From positions 62,001 to 126,000 of the forward strand of contig PLCA01000003.1 in the NCBI GenBank assembly GCA_003134685.1: a DNA stretch of 64,000 nucleotides, given 5' to 3'. A program made the translations under genes and the position numbers. The notes beneath the pieces were generated by a model. The model was given only the letters and a program-made list of their open reading frames with translations. It ran no database searches and was not told the DNA's origin. Within the stretch, counting starts at the first letter, position 1. Each line of letters begins with the position of its first letter. Source of the DNA: Gemmatimonadota bacterium. Lineage in GTDB: Bacteria; Gemmatimonadota; Gemmatimonadetes; Gemmatimonadales; Gemmatimonadaceae. This document shows positions 1 to 40,920 of the stretch, piece by piece.

Positions 1-1200
1 CTCATCGAGGGAGCCCAGCCGGCGGACGTTCCAGAGCTCGGCCAATTCTGGGGCGGAATCGTCGGATATTTCAGTTACGACATTGTGCGTCTCATCGAGA
101 ATCTCCCCAACCGACCCGAAAACGGTCTCGGAGCTCCCGATGCCGTCTTCGTATTCACTCGCTCGCTCGTGATACTCGACAACCTTTATGGGCGCGCTCG
201 CGTGGTGGTGTCGGTTCCCGTTAACAAAGGCGCGCGCGAAGACGAGCTGCGGTCGCTGTACGAGAGCGCCGCCGCCGAGCTGAACGAGGTTCTCGCGCGC
301 CTGCGGAAACCCGCGCGCCTGGAGGCGATGTCGCCGGACTCGAATGCCAATGCTGTCGAGGGCCACTCCAGCTACGACCGCGCCGACTTCATGAAGCACG
401 TCGAGCGCATCAAGGAGTACATCCGGGCCGGCGACTGCTTTCAGGCGCTGTTGTCACGCCGAATCGATGTCCCGCTCGACTTCGATCCCGCCGACCTGTA
501 TCGCGCGCTCCGGGCAATCAATCCGTCGCCCTACATGTACCATCTCGTGCTCGATGGAGTCGAGATCGTGGGCAGCTCTCCGGAGCTGCTGGTACGAGTA
601 TCGGACAATCACATCACTCTTCGTCCAATCGCGGGCACGCGGCCGCGCGGCAAGACACCGGAGGAGGACAAGCAGCTCTCAGCCGAGCTTCTCGCCGACG
701 AAAAAGAGCGGGCCGAGCACGTGATGCTTGTTGATCTCGGGCGAAACGACGTCGGCCGCGTGGCGAGGTACGGGACGGTGAAAGTCACCGAGCTGATGAA
801 GATCGAGAAGTACTCACACGTGCTGCACATCGTGAGTCAGGTGGAGGGCGAGCTGAAGGATGGACTCTCTGCCCTCGACGTGTTTCGCGCCACTTTCCCC
901 GCCGGTACGATGACGGGCGCGCCGAAGGTTCGGGCGATGCAAATCATCGACGAGCTGGAGCCGGTGTCGCGCGGACCGTACGCGGGGGCGATCGGCTACA
1001 TTGGCGCCGGCGGCAAGCGAATGGATCTGGCGATCACGATCCGTACGTGCGTCATCGCGAACGGCGCGGCATCGGTCCAGGCTGGCGCTGGCATCGTTGC
1101 CGATTCTGTTCCCGAGCGCGAATGGGACGAGACACGGAGCAAGGCCCAGGCACTCCTGAATGCCATTGCATCGGTGCGACGACAACAGAAGACGCAATGA
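1..1200 (+). CDS. trpE: Anthranilate synthase component I (5' end outside window)
   Basis: The frame is open from base 1, so the N-terminus lies outside the window. Anthranilate synthase component I converts chorismate to anthranilate with ammonia from TrpG, the first step of tryptophan synthesis. Visible chorismate-binding landmarks are GGIVGYFSYD at the left edge, PSPYMY, IAGTRPRG, the LGRNDVGRV stretch, FPAGTMTGAPKVRAM and GPYAGAIGYIG near the end. These match TrpE rather than isochorismate or aminodeoxychorismate synthases, though PabB cannot be excluded absolutely. No trpG or other trp gene follows. The next gene starts inside the stop codon (ATGA), so it is co-transcribed with LPS-type genes rather than trp genes. 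Confidence 0.93.
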   Translation, partial: LIEGAQPADVPELGQFWGGIVGYFSYDIVRLIENLPNRPENGLGAPDAVFVFTRSLVILDNLYGRARVVVSVPVNKGAREDELRSLYESAAAELNEVLARLRKPARLEAMSPDSNANAVEGHSSYDRADFMKHVERIKEYIRAGDCFQALLSRRIDVPLDFDPADLYRALRAINPSPYMYHLVLDGVEIVGSSPELLVRVSDNHITLRPIAGTRPRGKTPEEDKQLSAELLADEKERAEHVMLVDLGRNDVGRVARYGTVKVTELMKIEKYSHVLHIVSQVEGELKDGLSALDVFRATFPAGTMTGAPKVRAMQIIDELEPVSRGPYAGAIGYIGAGGKRMDLAITIRTCVIANGAASVQAGAGIVADSVPEREWDETRSKAQALLNAIASVRRQQKTQ

Positions 1201-1955
1201 TCGTCGGCCTGACTATCCCCTCGTACGAGCGCTTCCAGGTTGGCGGCGCGCGCGTCGTCGCGGCGCAAGCCTGCGCGCCGAGCATCCGCGGAGTGCTGGA
1301 GAAGGAAAGGCTTTACGAGTTCGCCTCGCGTCAGCCAGACACCATTCCACTCGTCGGACGCGCGCCCGTCTTCGCGGTGAATCTTCCTGGTGGCTGCGGC
1401 AGGGTGGTGGTGCGCCACAACATGCGCGGCGGCTGGATGGCCAAGTTCAACAACGACCTCTTCGTCCTGCCAACGCGGGGGTACCGAGAGCTGCTCGCGT
1501 CGCTGCGTCTGCGAGCGAGCGGGGTGAGCACGCCCGAGGTGCTCGCCTACGTGACGTATCCGAAGAATCTCCTGCTGCGCCGCTCCGATGTCGCGACGCG
1601 TGAGATCCCCAACGGCCACGATCTTTCCGTCGCTCTGGCCAAGATCACAGATCACGACCACAGGGTCATGGTACTGGATGCCATAGTAAAGCTGCTGCGA
1701 TCCCTGACCCATGCCGGGGCGCACCACCGGGATCTCAATCTGAAGAACGTGTTGCTCACCGCCGGCGAAGGTCCGGGACTCGACGCGCATGTGCTCGATG
1801 TCGATCGCGTTCGGTTCAGCTCACCGGGATCGCCGCTCGTGGCGAAAGCAAATCTCGACCGGCTCATTCGCTCGCTACGCAAATGGCGCGATCTTCACTC
1901 CCTTCCCTATTCGGCAGAAGACGAAGAGTACCTGCGTTTGAAGAGCGTGGAGTGA
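1197..1955 (+). CDS. Kdo/WaaP-family lipopolysaccharide kinase
   Basis: A 252-residue protein with the protein-kinase-like catalytic loop HRDLNLKNVLL and a following DVDRVRF in the place of the DFG-type metal-binding motif. This is the pattern of Kdo kinase and WaaP/InaA proteins, which phosphorylate Kdo or heptose in the LPS inner core at the cytoplasmic face of the membrane. The ATG at 1197 overlaps the trpE stop by 4 bp; a longer upstream reading would lie wholly within trpE. The following gene is a heptosyltransferase-type enzyme, which supports an LPS-core role. The exact sugar phosphorylated cannot be read from the sequence. Confidence 0.82.
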   Translation: MIVGLTIPSYERFQVGGARVVAAQACAPSIRGVLEKERLYEFASRQPDTIPLVGRAPVFAVNLPGGCGRVVVRHNMRGGWMAKFNNDLFVLPTRGYRELLASLRLRASGVSTPEVLAYVTYPKNLLLRRSDVATREIPNGHDLSVALAKITDHDHRVMVLDAIVKLLRSLTHAGAHHRDLNLKNVLLTAGEGPGLDAHVLDVDRVRFSSPGSPLVAKANLDRLIRSLRKWRDLHSLPYSAEDEEYLRLKSVE

Positions 1956-33625: not shown

Positions 33626-34705
33626 TCACCCACCACCCCGCCACCTCGCCCGTCTCCCTCTCACATCAATATGTACGTAATTCGTGCTCGAATGGCCTGT
33701 CGTGTAGATGCCAAGGCCCCCAACCAGATCAGGATGCTTCAACTCGACGATCTCCACCGCCAAACCTACCATGCGGCTGTCGATCGCGGTGATTTTTCCG
33801 TCACCATTGGCGTCTATCGCCACATCGGCGGCGTCGCCGTATTGGTGCTGACTGTCGCTCGCCGCGCGCCGGACCCTTTGGTTGTGTTCGGGGGCGCGAA
33901 ATCCGGAGTGTACATCGATCTCGATGTCGGCAATTGCCTTGTCGCCGTGCCAGCGAGCTATCTCCTGAATCACCAGCTCCAGCTTGTCCAGCAGCTTCGG
34001 ATTCACCGCCGCGAAACTCGGCCACACGCCCTTCTGGTCGTGGTTCAGAAAGTCACCGACTTTCAGGTGCTTGGTGATAGGAATGTCGACGTCGGCGGGG
34101 GTGATCTGGAGAAATCCCGTCGGCGGCGGCGTTTTCCCACGCGCGCGCTCTGCCAGATACGTCCCGATGCGATAGCCGTGGAGCATCGCGCCCTCTTTCT
34201 CCTCGAACGGAACCAGGACCGCGAGGGTCAGACCTTCGACAGCGCGCTTCTGGCCGGCCTTCATCAGCGCCAGCCTGTAGAAGCCAGCATTGGGGGGCGC
34301 GGAGACTTTGTCTCCAGTGAGAGGTTGCGCCTCGGTCGCCAGCGTCGAATCGCCATTTCGAATCCACGCGTATTGCAGCGCGGTTGGATCGCCGTGGACG
34401 TCGAGCGGATACGAGATCTCCTCCGACGGCATCGCGAAGGCGAGCTTCAGCTCCCCGCTCGCTCCGAACGCGCTGGCGGACGGCTCCGCCATGGGGACAA
34501 CGGATCGGACGAATGTCCCGATCGGCTTGTCGGTGGCGTCGCTCGCGGCTTGCAGGAACTGGAACGCGCCGACAAGGGCGACGACCGCCGCCGTGATCCA
34601 GACGATCCGCGCGGTATGGCGCTTTCGAACCGGGAGATCATCGGGAAGCTCGAGCTCTTCGCCGGTCGGATGATCCCGTCTCTCCCCTACGACTCCAGAC
34701 TCCAA
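33626..34705 (-). CDS. Membrane-anchored M15-type peptidoglycan peptidase
   Basis: A 359-residue protein with a single N-terminal membrane anchor (about 32-52) and a C-terminal M15/DUF882-like peptidase. SGFRAPEHNQ, SQHQYGDAADVAIDANGDGK and YVHIDVRG carry the zinc ligands and catalytic residues of D,D-/L,D-carboxypeptidases of the peptidase M15 group. The middle 150 residues form a beta-rich region of unknown role. The TTG at 34705 lies 10 bp after the L,D-transpeptidase gene, so they form one unit. It probably trims peptide stems in the periplasm. Confidence 0.85.
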   Translation of the reverse strand: MESGVVGERRDHPTGEELELPDDLPVRKRHTARIVWITAAVVALVGAFQFLQAASDATDKPIGTFVRSVVPMAEPSASAFGASGELKLAFAMPSEEISYPLDVHGDPTALQYAWIRNGDSTLATEAQPLTGDKVSAPPNAGFYRLALMKAGQKRAVEGLTLAVLVPFEEKEGAMLHGYRIGTYLAERARGKTPPPTGFLQITPADVDIPITKHLKVGDFLNHDQKGVWPSFAAVNPKLLDKLELVIQEIARWHGDKAIADIEIDVHSGFRAPEHNQRVRRAASDSQHQYGDAADVAIDANGDGKITAIDSRMVGLAVEIVELKHPDLVGGLGIYTTGHSSTNYVHIDVRGRRARWRGGG

Positions 34706-34714
34706 GCGGCGTTC

Positions 34715-35569
34715 TTAATAGATGTAGACTGGAGTACCGACCGCGACCATCGGGTACAGGCGCTCGATGTCCTCGTTCCGCATCCGGACGCAGCCATGAC
34801 TCACGGACTGCCCGATCGATTCGGGGTGATCGGTCCCGTGAATTCCGTAGCCGTCGCCGAGCTCCAGTCGGCGCGTTCCAAGCACGCCCATGTACCTGCG
34901 GGCGGTAGTGCCGTAGGGCGGAATGACGATGTTCCCATTTGCGACGATCTCCTTTCCTTCGACGCCTCCACCTAAAGACACCGTACTGCCATTGTTATAA
35001 CGCTTCACGACTTCGCCGTTCTGAGTGGTGAGGACTCCATCGCCAGTCGAAATCCTTTCACCCTGATCGAGGCGCACGATTCCAAGTCCTTTTTTGTGCG
35101 CCTGCTCGACGTAGTGCCAGTCGGGGGGAACCCACGCCGGATCCTCATCCTTGCCCTTAACTGTGAGCCGACCGCGGGGCGTCTCGAAGCGCCACTGTCC
35201 GGCCGATCCGCCCACCAGCTCCTTGCCGCTGCCGGTCGCCACCGGTGCCTCGAACAGAACGTCCTTTCCCTGCTTGTACCAGAGGCGGTGGTCTGCCATG
35301 CTCACGACGATGTATGGCTGGTTCGTCGCCTCCCCCGCCGTTTCGTTGAGAAGCGCCTTGAGGCTGTCGCCGGTCATGCCGAGCTTCGACTTCACCTCGT
35401 TGAGAACACCGAGGTTGTCGTTGTAGACCATGCGGTTGACGTCGCGCTGGTAGCGGAGCTCGGCCGTTTTCGTGAGCAACATGACGCTGAGGATCGCCGC
35501 GACGATGAAGCCGGTGATCAGCAACCAGACCGTCTTGCCGCCGTACGAAAAGATTCTGCTCACTCCCAT
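34715..35569 (-). CDS. Membrane-anchored L,D-transpeptidase (YkuD domain)
   Basis: A 284-residue protein with one N-terminal anchor (about 13-33) and a periplasmic YkuD catalytic domain. YIVVSMADHRLWYKQG starts the domain, GYGIHGTDHPESIG holds the first His, and SHGCVRMRNEDIERL carries the catalytic Cys260 and His258. These enzymes make 3-3 peptidoglycan cross-links or attach proteins to the wall. The gene is second in a three-gene unit between a degenerate paralogue and an M15 peptidase, so the set seems devoted to cell-wall remodelling. Confidence 0.93.
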   Translation of the reverse strand: MGVSRIFSYGGKTVWLLITGFIVAAILSVMLLTKTAELRYQRDVNRMVYNDNLGVLNEVKSKLGMTGDSLKALLNETAGEATNQPYIVVSMADHRLWYKQGKDVLFEAPVATGSGKELVGGSAGQWRFETPRGRLTVKGKDEDPAWVPPDWHYVEQAHKKGLGIVRLDQGERISTGDGVLTTQNGEVVKRYNNGSTVSLGGGVEGKEIVANGNIVIPPYGTTARRYMGVLGTRRLELGDGYGIHGTDHPESIGQSVSHGCVRMRNEDIERLYPMVAVGTPVYIY

Positions 35570-35609: not shown

Positions 35610-36281
35610 TCAGTAGAAGTATACCTTCATACCGGCATTAAGGTTCGGCTTTATCGCCTTCATGTCTACGATGCTGATGCGTAGTGATCCGGGTGGGATC
35701 GCGGTCGAATCGTTGGCGAGCTGAGCGCTCTCCGAGGACAGTATCTGGGTCCCACCGTCGAGCGTGATCTTCGTCTCGGAGAGATCCGCGACAGTGCGCT
35801 CTCCGCGCGGAATCGCCGCCGGCAGGGAGTCCGACGATTCGGACGGCGAACGCTCCGGTCCGAATTGCACCGGCATCTCGCGCAGCACCGCGCCTTCGCG
35901 CGTGAGGTACATCCGCGAGCTGTCGACCGACACGTTCAGATGAAGCTTCTTGTCGAACTTCGCCTGCCGCTTGGCCAACTCGATCGCGATCCGAAGCTTG
36001 TTCTGCTCCGACTGCACGATCAAATCCGACCGCTGTCGCTCGGCCTGCGACATGTGATCCCGGAGCGACTTCACGTCCTGGTTGTATTTCACCCGCTTGA
36101 CGAGGAGCCAGCCGTCGACGGCGATCATCGCGAACAGACCGAGTCCGAGAACGAAAACGAATCCCGGATAGGCGCGCCTGAAATCGCGCCAGGTGCCACG
36201 GCGCCGGTCGCCTTCTCCGGAGCGGCCGGGGCTGCGGCGTGTTTCCGGGCCGGTCTCCTGTTTAGGTCTGAAGATTTCCAT
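35610..36281 (-). CDS. Degenerate L,D-transpeptidase paralogue (catalytic Cys to Ser)
   Basis: A 223-residue protein with one membrane anchor (about 40-62), a coiled-coil-like segment and a C-terminal domain that parallels the next gene's product. SRMYLTREGAVLREMPVQFG matches HRLWYKQGKDVLFEAPVATG. The last 28 residues align without gaps to the last 28 of the active enzyme (G, R, D, P, G, V, Y and Y identical), but the active site SHGC is replaced by PPGS (Pro197, Ser199). It should therefore be inactive and may serve as a partner or regulator. It starts the three-gene unit. Confidence 0.78.
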   Translation of the reverse strand: MEIFRPKQETGPETRRSPGRSGEGDRRRGTWRDFRRAYPGFVFVLGLGLFAMIAVDGWLLVKRVKYNQDVKSLRDHMSQAERQRSDLIVQSEQNKLRIAIELAKRQAKFDKKLHLNVSVDSSRMYLTREGAVLREMPVQFGPERSPSESSDSLPAAIPRGERTVADLSETKITLDGGTQILSSESAQLANDSTAIPPGSLRISIVDMKAIKPNLNAGMKVYFY

Positions 36282-36329: not shown

Positions 36330-37880
36330 ATGGTCAAGTCACCGCGCGCGCGGCCAGTCGCGCTCATCGTACTCGATGGATGGGGCTACCGCCCCGAAAC
36401 TGCGGGCAATGCAATCGCACTCGCCAACACTCCGACCTGGGACTCGCTCTGGAGCCGCGGCTCGCGCACGCTGCTCGAAGCATCCGGACTTCGCGTCGGC
36501 CTGCCTGAAGGCCAGATGGGCAACAGCGAGGTCGGACACCTGAATCTAGGCGCCGGACGCGTGGTGATGCAGGATCTGGTACGCATCTCTTCGGCCATTG
36601 CCGACGGAAGCTTCTACTCCAATCCCGCCCTCCTGGGCGCATGCAGGCACGTGAAGAGACTTCGCGGCACGTTGCATCTCATGGGATTGATCGGCTCGGG
36701 CGGTGTTCACGCAATCGACAAGCACCTTCTAGCGCTGCTCGAACTGGCGAAGCGAGAGGGCGTTGAGCGCGTTGCGATTCATGCTTTCCTCGACGGACGC
36801 GACACCCTCCCCAAATCCGCGCTTGGCTTCATGCAGGAGCTGATCGGTCAGATCCGAAAAATCGGCTCGCCCGCGAAGATCGCGAGCGTCTCGGGCCGCT
36901 ACTACGCGATGGACCGCGACCAGAGATGGGACCGCACGGAGCTCGCGTATCGCGCCATTGTACTCGGCGAGGGAACGACCGTCACCGATCCGCTCGACGC
37001 CATTCGCAAGGCGTACGAGTCCGGCAAGACCGACGAGTTCATGCTGCCGGTGGTCGTCACCGAGAATGGAAACCCGGTGGCGCCGATGAAGGACGGCGAC
37101 TCGGTGATCGGCTTCAACTACCGCTCGGACAGAATGCGGCAGATCGTTCGCGCGCTGATCGATCCGGCCTTCGACGGCTTTAACGCCTCGCGGCGCCCCA
37201 AAGTCCTTGTTACGACGCTCACGAATTACGACAAGACGTTCGACGTTCCGGTCGCGTTCGCGCCCACGTCGATGGCGCGGATTCTCGCCGAGGTGTTGTC
37301 GTCGCGCGGGCTCGACATGCTGAAGACGGCAGAAACCGAGAAGTACCCGCATGTGACTTACTTCTTCAACGGCGGCGTTGAAGCCCCGTTTCCCCGCGAG
37401 CACCGCGTGATGGTGCCGAGCCCCAAGGTGGCGACGTACGACCTCAAGCCGGAGATGAGCGCCGCGGGGGTAACTGACGCGCTGGTGACGGGCATCTCGT
37501 CGGGAGAGCACGATTTCATTCTCTGCAACTACGCGAATGCGGACATGGTGGGTCACAGCGGATCGATTCCGGCTACGATCAAGGCGGTGGAAACCGTCGA
37601 TCAATGCCTGGCGCGCGTTCTGAAGGCCGCCGAGAGCGCGGGGATCAGGTTGATCGTAACCGCCGATCACGGTAACGCGGAAATGCTGATCGATCCGGAA
37701 ACGGGCGGTCCGCACACCGCTCACACGACGAATCCGGTTCCGCTCGTCGTCGTCGACTGGGAGCAGGAGCAGCGGGTGCGCTCGGGCGGCGCTCTCTGCG
37801 ATGTCGCGCCAACTATATTATCAATGCTCGGTATCGAGCAGCCGGCGGAGATGACCGGCGTCAATCTTGGAGTGGATTAG
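36330..37880 (+). CDS. gpmI: 2,3-bisphosphoglycerate-independent phosphoglycerate mutase
   Basis: A 516-residue alkaline-phosphatase-superfamily enzyme that interconverts 3- and 2-phosphoglycerate through a phosphoserine. LIVLDGWGYRPE, EGQMGNSEVGHLNLGAGR (catalytic Ser), DGRDT, SGRYYAMDRDQRWDRTE and TADHGNAEML supply the metal and substrate residues. Length is normal. It starts 48 bp from the divergent transpeptidase-paralogue gene, and its stop overlaps the following GTG start. Confidence 0.97.
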   Translation: MVKSPRARPVALIVLDGWGYRPETAGNAIALANTPTWDSLWSRGSRTLLEASGLRVGLPEGQMGNSEVGHLNLGAGRVVMQDLVRISSAIADGSFYSNPALLGACRHVKRLRGTLHLMGLIGSGGVHAIDKHLLALLELAKREGVERVAIHAFLDGRDTLPKSALGFMQELIGQIRKIGSPAKIASVSGRYYAMDRDQRWDRTELAYRAIVLGEGTTVTDPLDAIRKAYESGKTDEFMLPVVVTENGNPVAPMKDGDSVIGFNYRSDRMRQIVRALIDPAFDGFNASRRPKVLVTTLTNYDKTFDVPVAFAPTSMARILAEVLSSRGLDMLKTAETEKYPHVTYFFNGGVEAPFPREHRVMVPSPKVATYDLKPEMSAAGVTDALVTGISSGEHDFILCNYANADMVGHSGSIPATIKAVETVDQCLARVLKAAESAGIRLIVTADHGNAEMLIDPETGGPHTAHTTNPVPLVVVDWEQEQRVRSGGALCDVAPTILSMLGIEQPAEMTGVNLGVD

Positions 37881-39582: not shown

Positions 39583-40920
39583 GTGTCGGACTTTTTCAAA
39601 CGCCGGTTCGCGCGCGCGCTTGTAAGCACAGTCGCGCCGTTCGCTCTCTCTGCCTGCGTGACGGTGATGAGAAGCGTTCACCCCGGATCACAGCGGGCCG
39701 AGCTCGGGCACGTGATCGACTCGCTGACTTCCCAGGCAGTGTTCAGAAACGCGAACTGGGGCGTGCTGATCGTCAACCCGCGCACCGGCGACACGCTTTA
39801 CTCGAAGAACGCGGGCAAGTTGTTCATGCCGGCCTCCAACATGAAGATCATCACCACCGCGGCGGCGCTCACCCTGCTCGGCCCGGACTACACCTACAAG
39901 ACGACTTTTCTCGCCAGCGGAGAGGTGCGCGACTCTCTCCTCGACGGAGACTTGCTGGTGATCGGGCGGGGCGATCCGACCGTGAGCGACAACATGAGGG
40001 GAATCGCGACAACCGTAATGGACGCGCTCGCCGACTCGATTCGCGCTCATGGAATCAGACAGATCACGGGGTCGCTCGCGCGGATCGGCAACGCTTTCCC
40101 CGACTCCATCCACGGCTACGGCTGGGAGTGGGACGACCTCGGCGAATACTACGGCGCCGGTGTGGACGAGCTCATCTTCAACGAGGGAATGGCGCCGACG
40201 ACACCACGTCCCCCGCCTGACACCGTGCGAGACAGTCTCTACTCGGGCCCCGCAAAGGATCCAGCGACGGGATACCTCAACGCGCTCAACGACGCACTGG
40301 TGCGGAAGCACATCACAGTTGAAGCGGGGGTCGTCGACAGCATTGTGCCGACGCCCTTCAAGATGGACACGCTGTTCACGTTCGTCTCCCTTCCAATGCG
40401 AAACATCATCCCGGCGCTGATGAAGCCGTCGCAGAACCAGATCGCGGAGATTCTGTTCAAGACGATTGGGCTGGAGCGAGGAGGAATGGGGACATCCGAC
40501 AGCGCGCGGAAGATAGTTGGACAACAGCTGCTCGCCTGGGGCGCGCAGCCCGACGGCTTCGTGATCCGCGACGGCAGCGGACTTTCGCGCCACGATCTCG
40601 TTTCTCCGGAGACGATCGTGAAAGTGCTCGACAAGATTCAGCAGGACACCGCGTTCGCCGTTTACTACAATGCGATGCCGATTGCCGGCGTCGACGGCAC
40701 TCTCAAGGACAGAATGAAAGGCACGCCGGCCGAGGGAAACGTGCATGCGAAAACCGGCTCGATCGCGGCGGCGCGCTCCCTTTCCGGGTACGTCACGACT
40801 GCCGACGGCGAACGCCTCATTTTCAGCATCCTGGCCAACAATTGGACGACGCCGAGCTCCGCGGTCACAGACGTGGCGGACCAGATCGCTTCCTCGCTCG
40901 CCGCCTACCGCGCGCATTAA
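39583..40920 (+). CDS. dacB: D-alanyl-D-alanine carboxypeptidase/endopeptidase (PBP4 family)
   Basis: A 445-residue S13-family penicillin-binding protein that trims D-Ala or cleaves cross-links. Active-site motifs are in order: S85xxK88 in PASNMK, SxN in PSQNQIAE and KTG in HAKTGS. The N-terminus has basic residues, a short hydrophobic stretch and the lipobox LSAC (Cys25), so it may be lipid-anchored, which is not usual for PBP4. GTG at 39583 is 9 bp after the PTPS gene. Confidence 0.92.
   Translation: MSDFFKRRFARALVSTVAPFALSACVTVMRSVHPGSQRAELGHVIDSLTSQAVFRNANWGVLIVNPRTGDTLYSKNAGKLFMPASNMKIITTAAALTLLGPDYTYKTTFLASGEVRDSLLDGDLLVIGRGDPTVSDNMRGIATTVMDALADSIRAHGIRQITGSLARIGNAFPDSIHGYGWEWDDLGEYYGAGVDELIFNEGMAPTTPRPPPDTVRDSLYSGPAKDPATGYLNALNDALVRKHITVEAGVVDSIVPTPFKMDTLFTFVSLPMRNIIPALMKPSQNQIAEILFKTIGLERGGMGTSDSARKIVGQQLLAWGAQPDGFVIRDGSGLSRHDLVSPETIVKVLDKIQQDTAFAVYYNAMPIAGVDGTLKDRMKGTPAEGNVHAKTGSIAAARSLSGYVTTADGERLIFSILANNWTTPSSAVTDVADQIASSLAAYRAH

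Follow-up and report, generated by a model that had tools for sequence, protein, structure and literature searches.

What is the role of a protein that resembles a disabled enzyme and is encoded directly before a working copy of that enzyme? The question is raised by two neighbouring genes, here called P and Y, in a 64,000-nucleotide stretch of Gemmatimonadaceae DNA (the window). Y has the sequence of an intact YkuD L,D-transpeptidase (LDT) and may form 3-3 cross-links. A preliminary description of the locus had proposed that P is a degenerate LDT and a paralogue of the active Y, and had suggested that it may be a regulatory or scaffold subunit of a 3-3 cross-linking complex. Little is known of how LDTs are activated and positioned, and the P-Y pair, with only two genes, is a simple setting for direct tests of LDT control.

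The P-Y locus

The features of the locus are collected in Table 1. On the minus strand P is followed by Y and then by an M15_2 peptidase gene, with spacings of 40 bp and 9 bp respectively, and from this spacing the three may form an operon; neither a promoter nor a terminator was recognised on the minus strand of the P locus. The best named relative of the third gene product is the L,D-endopeptidase MepK (NCBIfam PtglEndpepMepK, E 3.2e-4), at a score far below the cutoff for that model (20.6 bits against 185), and the Pfam M15_2 cutoff is just reached (27.8 against 27). MepK itself is an LD-specific endopeptidase that E. coli needs when its cross-links are mainly those made by LDTs (PMC12729407). 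It is plausible that P, Y and the peptidase constitute a module for making and cutting cross-links, and the presence of a MepK-like gene downstream suggests that those handled are of the 3-3 type. There are more peptidoglycan genes near P, since an ORF at window positions 39583-40920 on the plus strand, about 3.3 kb away, reads as a D-Ala-D-Ala carboxypeptidase/PBP4-like protein (DacB).

Table 1. Positions of the P-Y locus features in the window
Feature	Position	Strand	Evidence
P, membrane-anchored pseudo-L,D-transpeptidase, 223 aa, ATG start	35610..36281	minus	ORF, profiles, model
P residues 39-61, single transmembrane helix	36099..36167	minus	sequence; helix 39-75 in model
P residues 62-113, conserved helical arm, predicted periplasmic (LRxxMTxxERxxxD...ELxRRQAK)	35943..36098	minus	alignment, model
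P residues 114-223, degenerate and shortened YkuD domain	35613..35942	minus	VIA-align
P residues 196-199, PPGS, where catalytic SHGC would stand	35685..35696	minus	alignments
Y, active-type YkuD L,D-transpeptidase, 284 aa, one N-terminal transmembrane helix	34715..35569	minus	Pfam YkuD E 4.5e-26; catalytic residues complete
Y residues 257-260, catalytic SHGC	34790..34801	minus	invariant in 24/24 Y homologues
Third gene, M15_2/M15_3 peptidase	33626..34705	minus	Pfam Peptidase_M15_2 E 2.5e-6
gpmI, divergent, conserved flank of the P-Y pair; synteny marker outside the system	36330..37880	plus	

P is a YkuD protein by descent

The proposed paralogy rested on the C-terminal 28 residues of P and Y, said to align without gaps and with 8 identities, on a parallel strand upstream of them (SRMYLTREGAVLREMPVQFG in one protein, HRLWYKQGKDVLFEAPVATG in the other) and on the single N-terminal anchor of each protein. 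All of these hold. The C-terminal alignment is exactly as described, with the SHGC of Y opposite the PPGS of P, so that His258 is replaced by Pro197 and Cys260 by Ser199; the upstream strand pair is recovered by profile-profile alignment; and one anchor in each protein is supported. In P the transmembrane helix is preceded by a basic tail, DRRRGTWRDFRR, from which, by the positive-inside rule, the N-terminus would be cytoplasmic and the C-terminus periplasmic. At least 8 identities in the C-terminal 28 residues arose in a fraction of 5e-5 of shuffling trials, none of 20,000 shuffles attained the BLOSUM62 score of 36, and the next best 28-residue stretch of P scored 4 against the Y C-terminus.

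Comparison of whole families points the same way. P homologues were collected from whole genomes. When profiles of 25 P and 24 Y proteins were compared with hhalign, the probability was 95.2% (E 2.8e-8), and for the domain alone, the comparison that had been called for, P matched the YkuD family of Y at 91.8%, with reversed and column-shuffled controls at no more than 0.8%. HMM matches were reciprocal, the P profile finding Y proteins (E to 3.7e-8) and the Y profile finding P proteins of a second family of the class (E down to 1e-13). The N-terminal parts alone are weakly similar (19.8%), and we do not extend the shared ancestry to the anchor. Chance alignment of P with Y is rejected by the shuffles and the profile controls. 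The relationship is thus confirmed as a real one that lies below ordinary detection: BLASTP of P against Y gave E 0.46, single-sequence Pfam and NCBIfam searches did not call YkuD in the window P, Pfam YkuD appeared in only 3 of 25 P members and there below threshold, and a profile search of PDB sequences with P returned no related entry.

The predicted structure agrees in fold. The AlphaFold2 model of P (pLDDT 75.9, pTM 0.52) consists of a long helix comprising membrane segment and arm, and a beta domain. A different fold would have spoken against kinship with the LDTs, and among the matches listed all 50 from Foldseek and all 50 from VIA-align are YkuD-family structures, the latter headed by LdtMt1 (5e51_D; Z 14.4, 1.8 A over 93 residues) and including B. 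subtilis YkuD (4a1i; Z 14.1, 2.0 A over 97 residues). By homology and by fold, P is a YkuD L,D-transpeptidase in descent. P and Y were also modelled jointly, as the read-through chain of a same-genus locus in which the stop codon TGA was read as Trp; this chain (pLDDT 84.5, pTM 0.58), which comes without an interface score, has an intact YkuD domain in its Y half (Z 19.7 to 1y7m).

Loss of the active site

The catalytic Cys (position 199) and the motif His (197) are kept in none of 78 P homologues. Position 199 is occupied by Ser, Ala, Asn, Gly, Thr and others, and position 197 by Pro in 62 of the 78. The other active-site histidine of Y, His244, stands opposite Leu181 of P, at a position that is mostly Tyr in the family. 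With the Cys and His of the [ST]HGC motif gone, P would not be expected to act as an LDT. The window P is also short, missing between core strands about 24 residues that the long P forms retain and about 70 that are present in Y; many homologues are longer and retain more of the LDT core (e.g. VPEWVY...GALGxxxxxLxGGTxIY).

Pairing of P with Y across genomes

The preliminary description had suggested that co-occurrence of the two genes be examined across genomes, and had regarded P homologues with no tie to an LDT as evidence against the proposal; the distribution found does not refute it. In Gemmatimonadaceae, Y lies directly 3' of P on the same strand at 91 of 98 P match places, and the gap between them, usually about 130 bp or less, never exceeds 284 bp. 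Both genes are found in 94 of 148 genomes, neither in 49, and 5 are discordant, a count that leaves out G102, whose match is an LDT paralogue. Three of the discordant cases (G074, G129 and G153) are at contig ends and one (G141) has a truncated P match. In the fifth, G170, an 88-residue remnant of P stands directly before an intact Y and scores 30 bits to the P profile of its own genus; it is possible that this represents late reduction of the pseudoenzyme or a frameshift in the assembly. The remnant (L079, about 1145-1411, minus strand) is an open frame without anchor. A further irregularity occurs in G014 (L008/L028), where an ambiguous base and a frameshift split a P that is otherwise about 95% identical; this is probably an assembly error.

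The same pair, in the same order and on the same strand, is present in the second family (f8), where Y adjoins P in every locus read. The single match in f7 is an ordinary active LDT, and neither P nor Y is present in the 15 genomes tested from two further families within the same order. Several Gemmatimonadaceae carry a second active LDT paralogue (L082 in G102, L117 in G030 and L097 in G033), which matches the Y profile at E of roughly 1e-57 to 1e-66; some of these genomes lack the P-Y pair.

Selection and evolutionary history

Pairwise omega values for P are 0.08-0.20 among seven same-genus species, which indicates purifying selection; those for Y in six of the seven are 0.045-0.086. P is therefore a pseudoenzyme on which selection has been maintained after its catalytic residues were lost. 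A frame error or a pseudogene was considered and rejected on the omega values, the intact frame and the 78-sequence alignment.

In a tree of 62 domains, the P sequences of the two families group together (support 100/98), as do the Y sequences of the two (97/99); with the root placed only at the midpoint, the tree alone does not establish the direction. The simplest account is that a single LDT duplication preceded the split of the two carrier families, after which P evolved faster than Y and was repeatedly shortened. Distances within P and within Y remain correlated after removal of gpmI, for which a partial-length control was used (partial r 0.80, 0 of 2000 permutations). This covariation of rates fits joint evolution and does not prove contact, as co-inheritance of neighbours and correlated rates can occur without P and Y touching.

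What P may do

Since P almost always occurs with Y and is under selection, the dead protein probably belongs to the working enzyme as an integral partner and is not a product of decay. The reading we favour, and hold with some confidence, is that P is a YkuD pseudoenzyme dedicated to Y, which it binds, positions, activates or restrains. After the duplication, the P copy would have shed its catalytic residues together with a portion of the domain. A single helix would hold each of P and Y in the inner membrane, their domains lying in the periplasm, and the two could pair by the helical arms close to the membrane, by the YkuD domain or by both; P might then activate, position or restrain Y on the peptidoglycan, as degenerate LytM proteins do with amidases. 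With the MepK-like protein the pair may deal with 3-3 cross-links. A more specific form of this proposal, which we advance tentatively, is that Y depends obligatorily on the trans-encoded pseudo-LDT as its activator or positioning subunit and that LDT activity here belongs to a heteromeric membrane complex. If true, this would be a regulatory principle that we did not find described for LDTs in the literature searched.

P could instead be an LDT-derived peptidoglycan-binding module which tethers or concentrates the local machinery without direct contact with Y. Such a role has been proposed for the inactive LdtPae1 domain (PMC10434034), and it would suit a protein that has kept the YkuD fold and, in its former active-site loop, G198 in 69 and R201 in 61 of 78 sequences. 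Many P members, however, lack a stretch between core strands, and the motif positions vary, so we consider this explanation rather unlikely. There is a smaller chance, which we would put as slight, that the protein served by P is not Y but some other product of the locus, for instance the MepK-like peptidase. In every same-genus genome whose sequence extends far enough, the peptidase gene is found 3' of Y, but in more distant genomes its match is weaker or none was seen within the stretch examined, whereas P and Y stay adjacent across two families.

It is very improbable that P has acquired a new chemistry with other residues. H114, D120, S121, R134 and D206 are invariant in a 25-member alignment and might be thought of in this way, yet several of these positions lie in fold-defining strands, no nucleophile is conserved at the old site, and most P members have no Cys at all. 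Neutral decay of a P carried along by linkage to Y, which the faster evolution and repeated shortening of P might suggest, is hardly credible and largely refuted by the purifying selection on a frame that is intact in two families, even if strong shrinkage in some lineages (e.g. the 88 residues in G170) could be read as decay there.

Comparison with known systems

P resembles the YkuD / ErfK-YbiS-YcfS-YnhG LDTs (1y7m/4a1i; LdtMt1 5e51, 4lpq) in its fold (Z about 14), the order of its C-terminal strands and a G-x-[VIL]-R loop, and differs from them in having neither catalytic Cys nor His and in its shortened domain. The closest precedent is LdtPae1 of Pseudomonas aeruginosa, in which the second YkuD domain is dead and has been described as unique to that protein (PMC10434034). 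In both cases a duplicate YkuD domain without catalytic Cys (QLGKIR in LdtPae1) lies beside an active one; in LdtPae1, however, the two are joined in cis in one polypeptide, whereas P is separate, membrane-anchored and conserved across two families. LdtPae1 was the only LDT pseudoenzyme that we found in the open-access literature, where such an absence is weak evidence, and a separate, clade-wide pseudo-LDT tied to an active paralogue was not found there.

Functional parallels are offered by other proteins of the cell wall. EnvC and NlpD are degenerate LytM activators. ActS, likewise a LytM protein, has no hydrolytic activity that could be detected (PMC9238320), and it activates amidases (PMC8360153). 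As proposed for P, a non-catalytic relative of a peptidoglycan enzyme controls a peptidoglycan enzyme, although these three are of a different fold and control amidases rather than their own active paralogue. The P-Y pair would extend this theme of pseudoenzyme control from cell-wall hydrolases to a cross-linking enzyme. Co-expression of LdtF raises 3-3 cross-linking by LdtD/LdtE (PMC6428754), and LdtF was thus an LDT paralogue proposed to stimulate other LDTs; it was later identified as DpaA, an E. coli amidase that hydrolyses the Lpp-peptidoglycan bond (PMC8263019). Unlike P, LdtF/DpaA has its Cys intact and detaches Lpp, and the parallel is therefore a loose one. For a group of unannotated Gemmatimonadaceae proteins, the present analysis provides a fold and a likely role.

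The N-terminal tails show a further resemblance. Residues 1-38 of P (window 36168-36281) include a conserved basic motif, DRRRxGWRDFRRAYP, in the predicted cytoplasmic tail, and a comparable basic tail, ERR-x-x-x-PxGRxRRI, is found in Y of the second family. It is possible that the two represent a shared signal for the membrane or for a partner.
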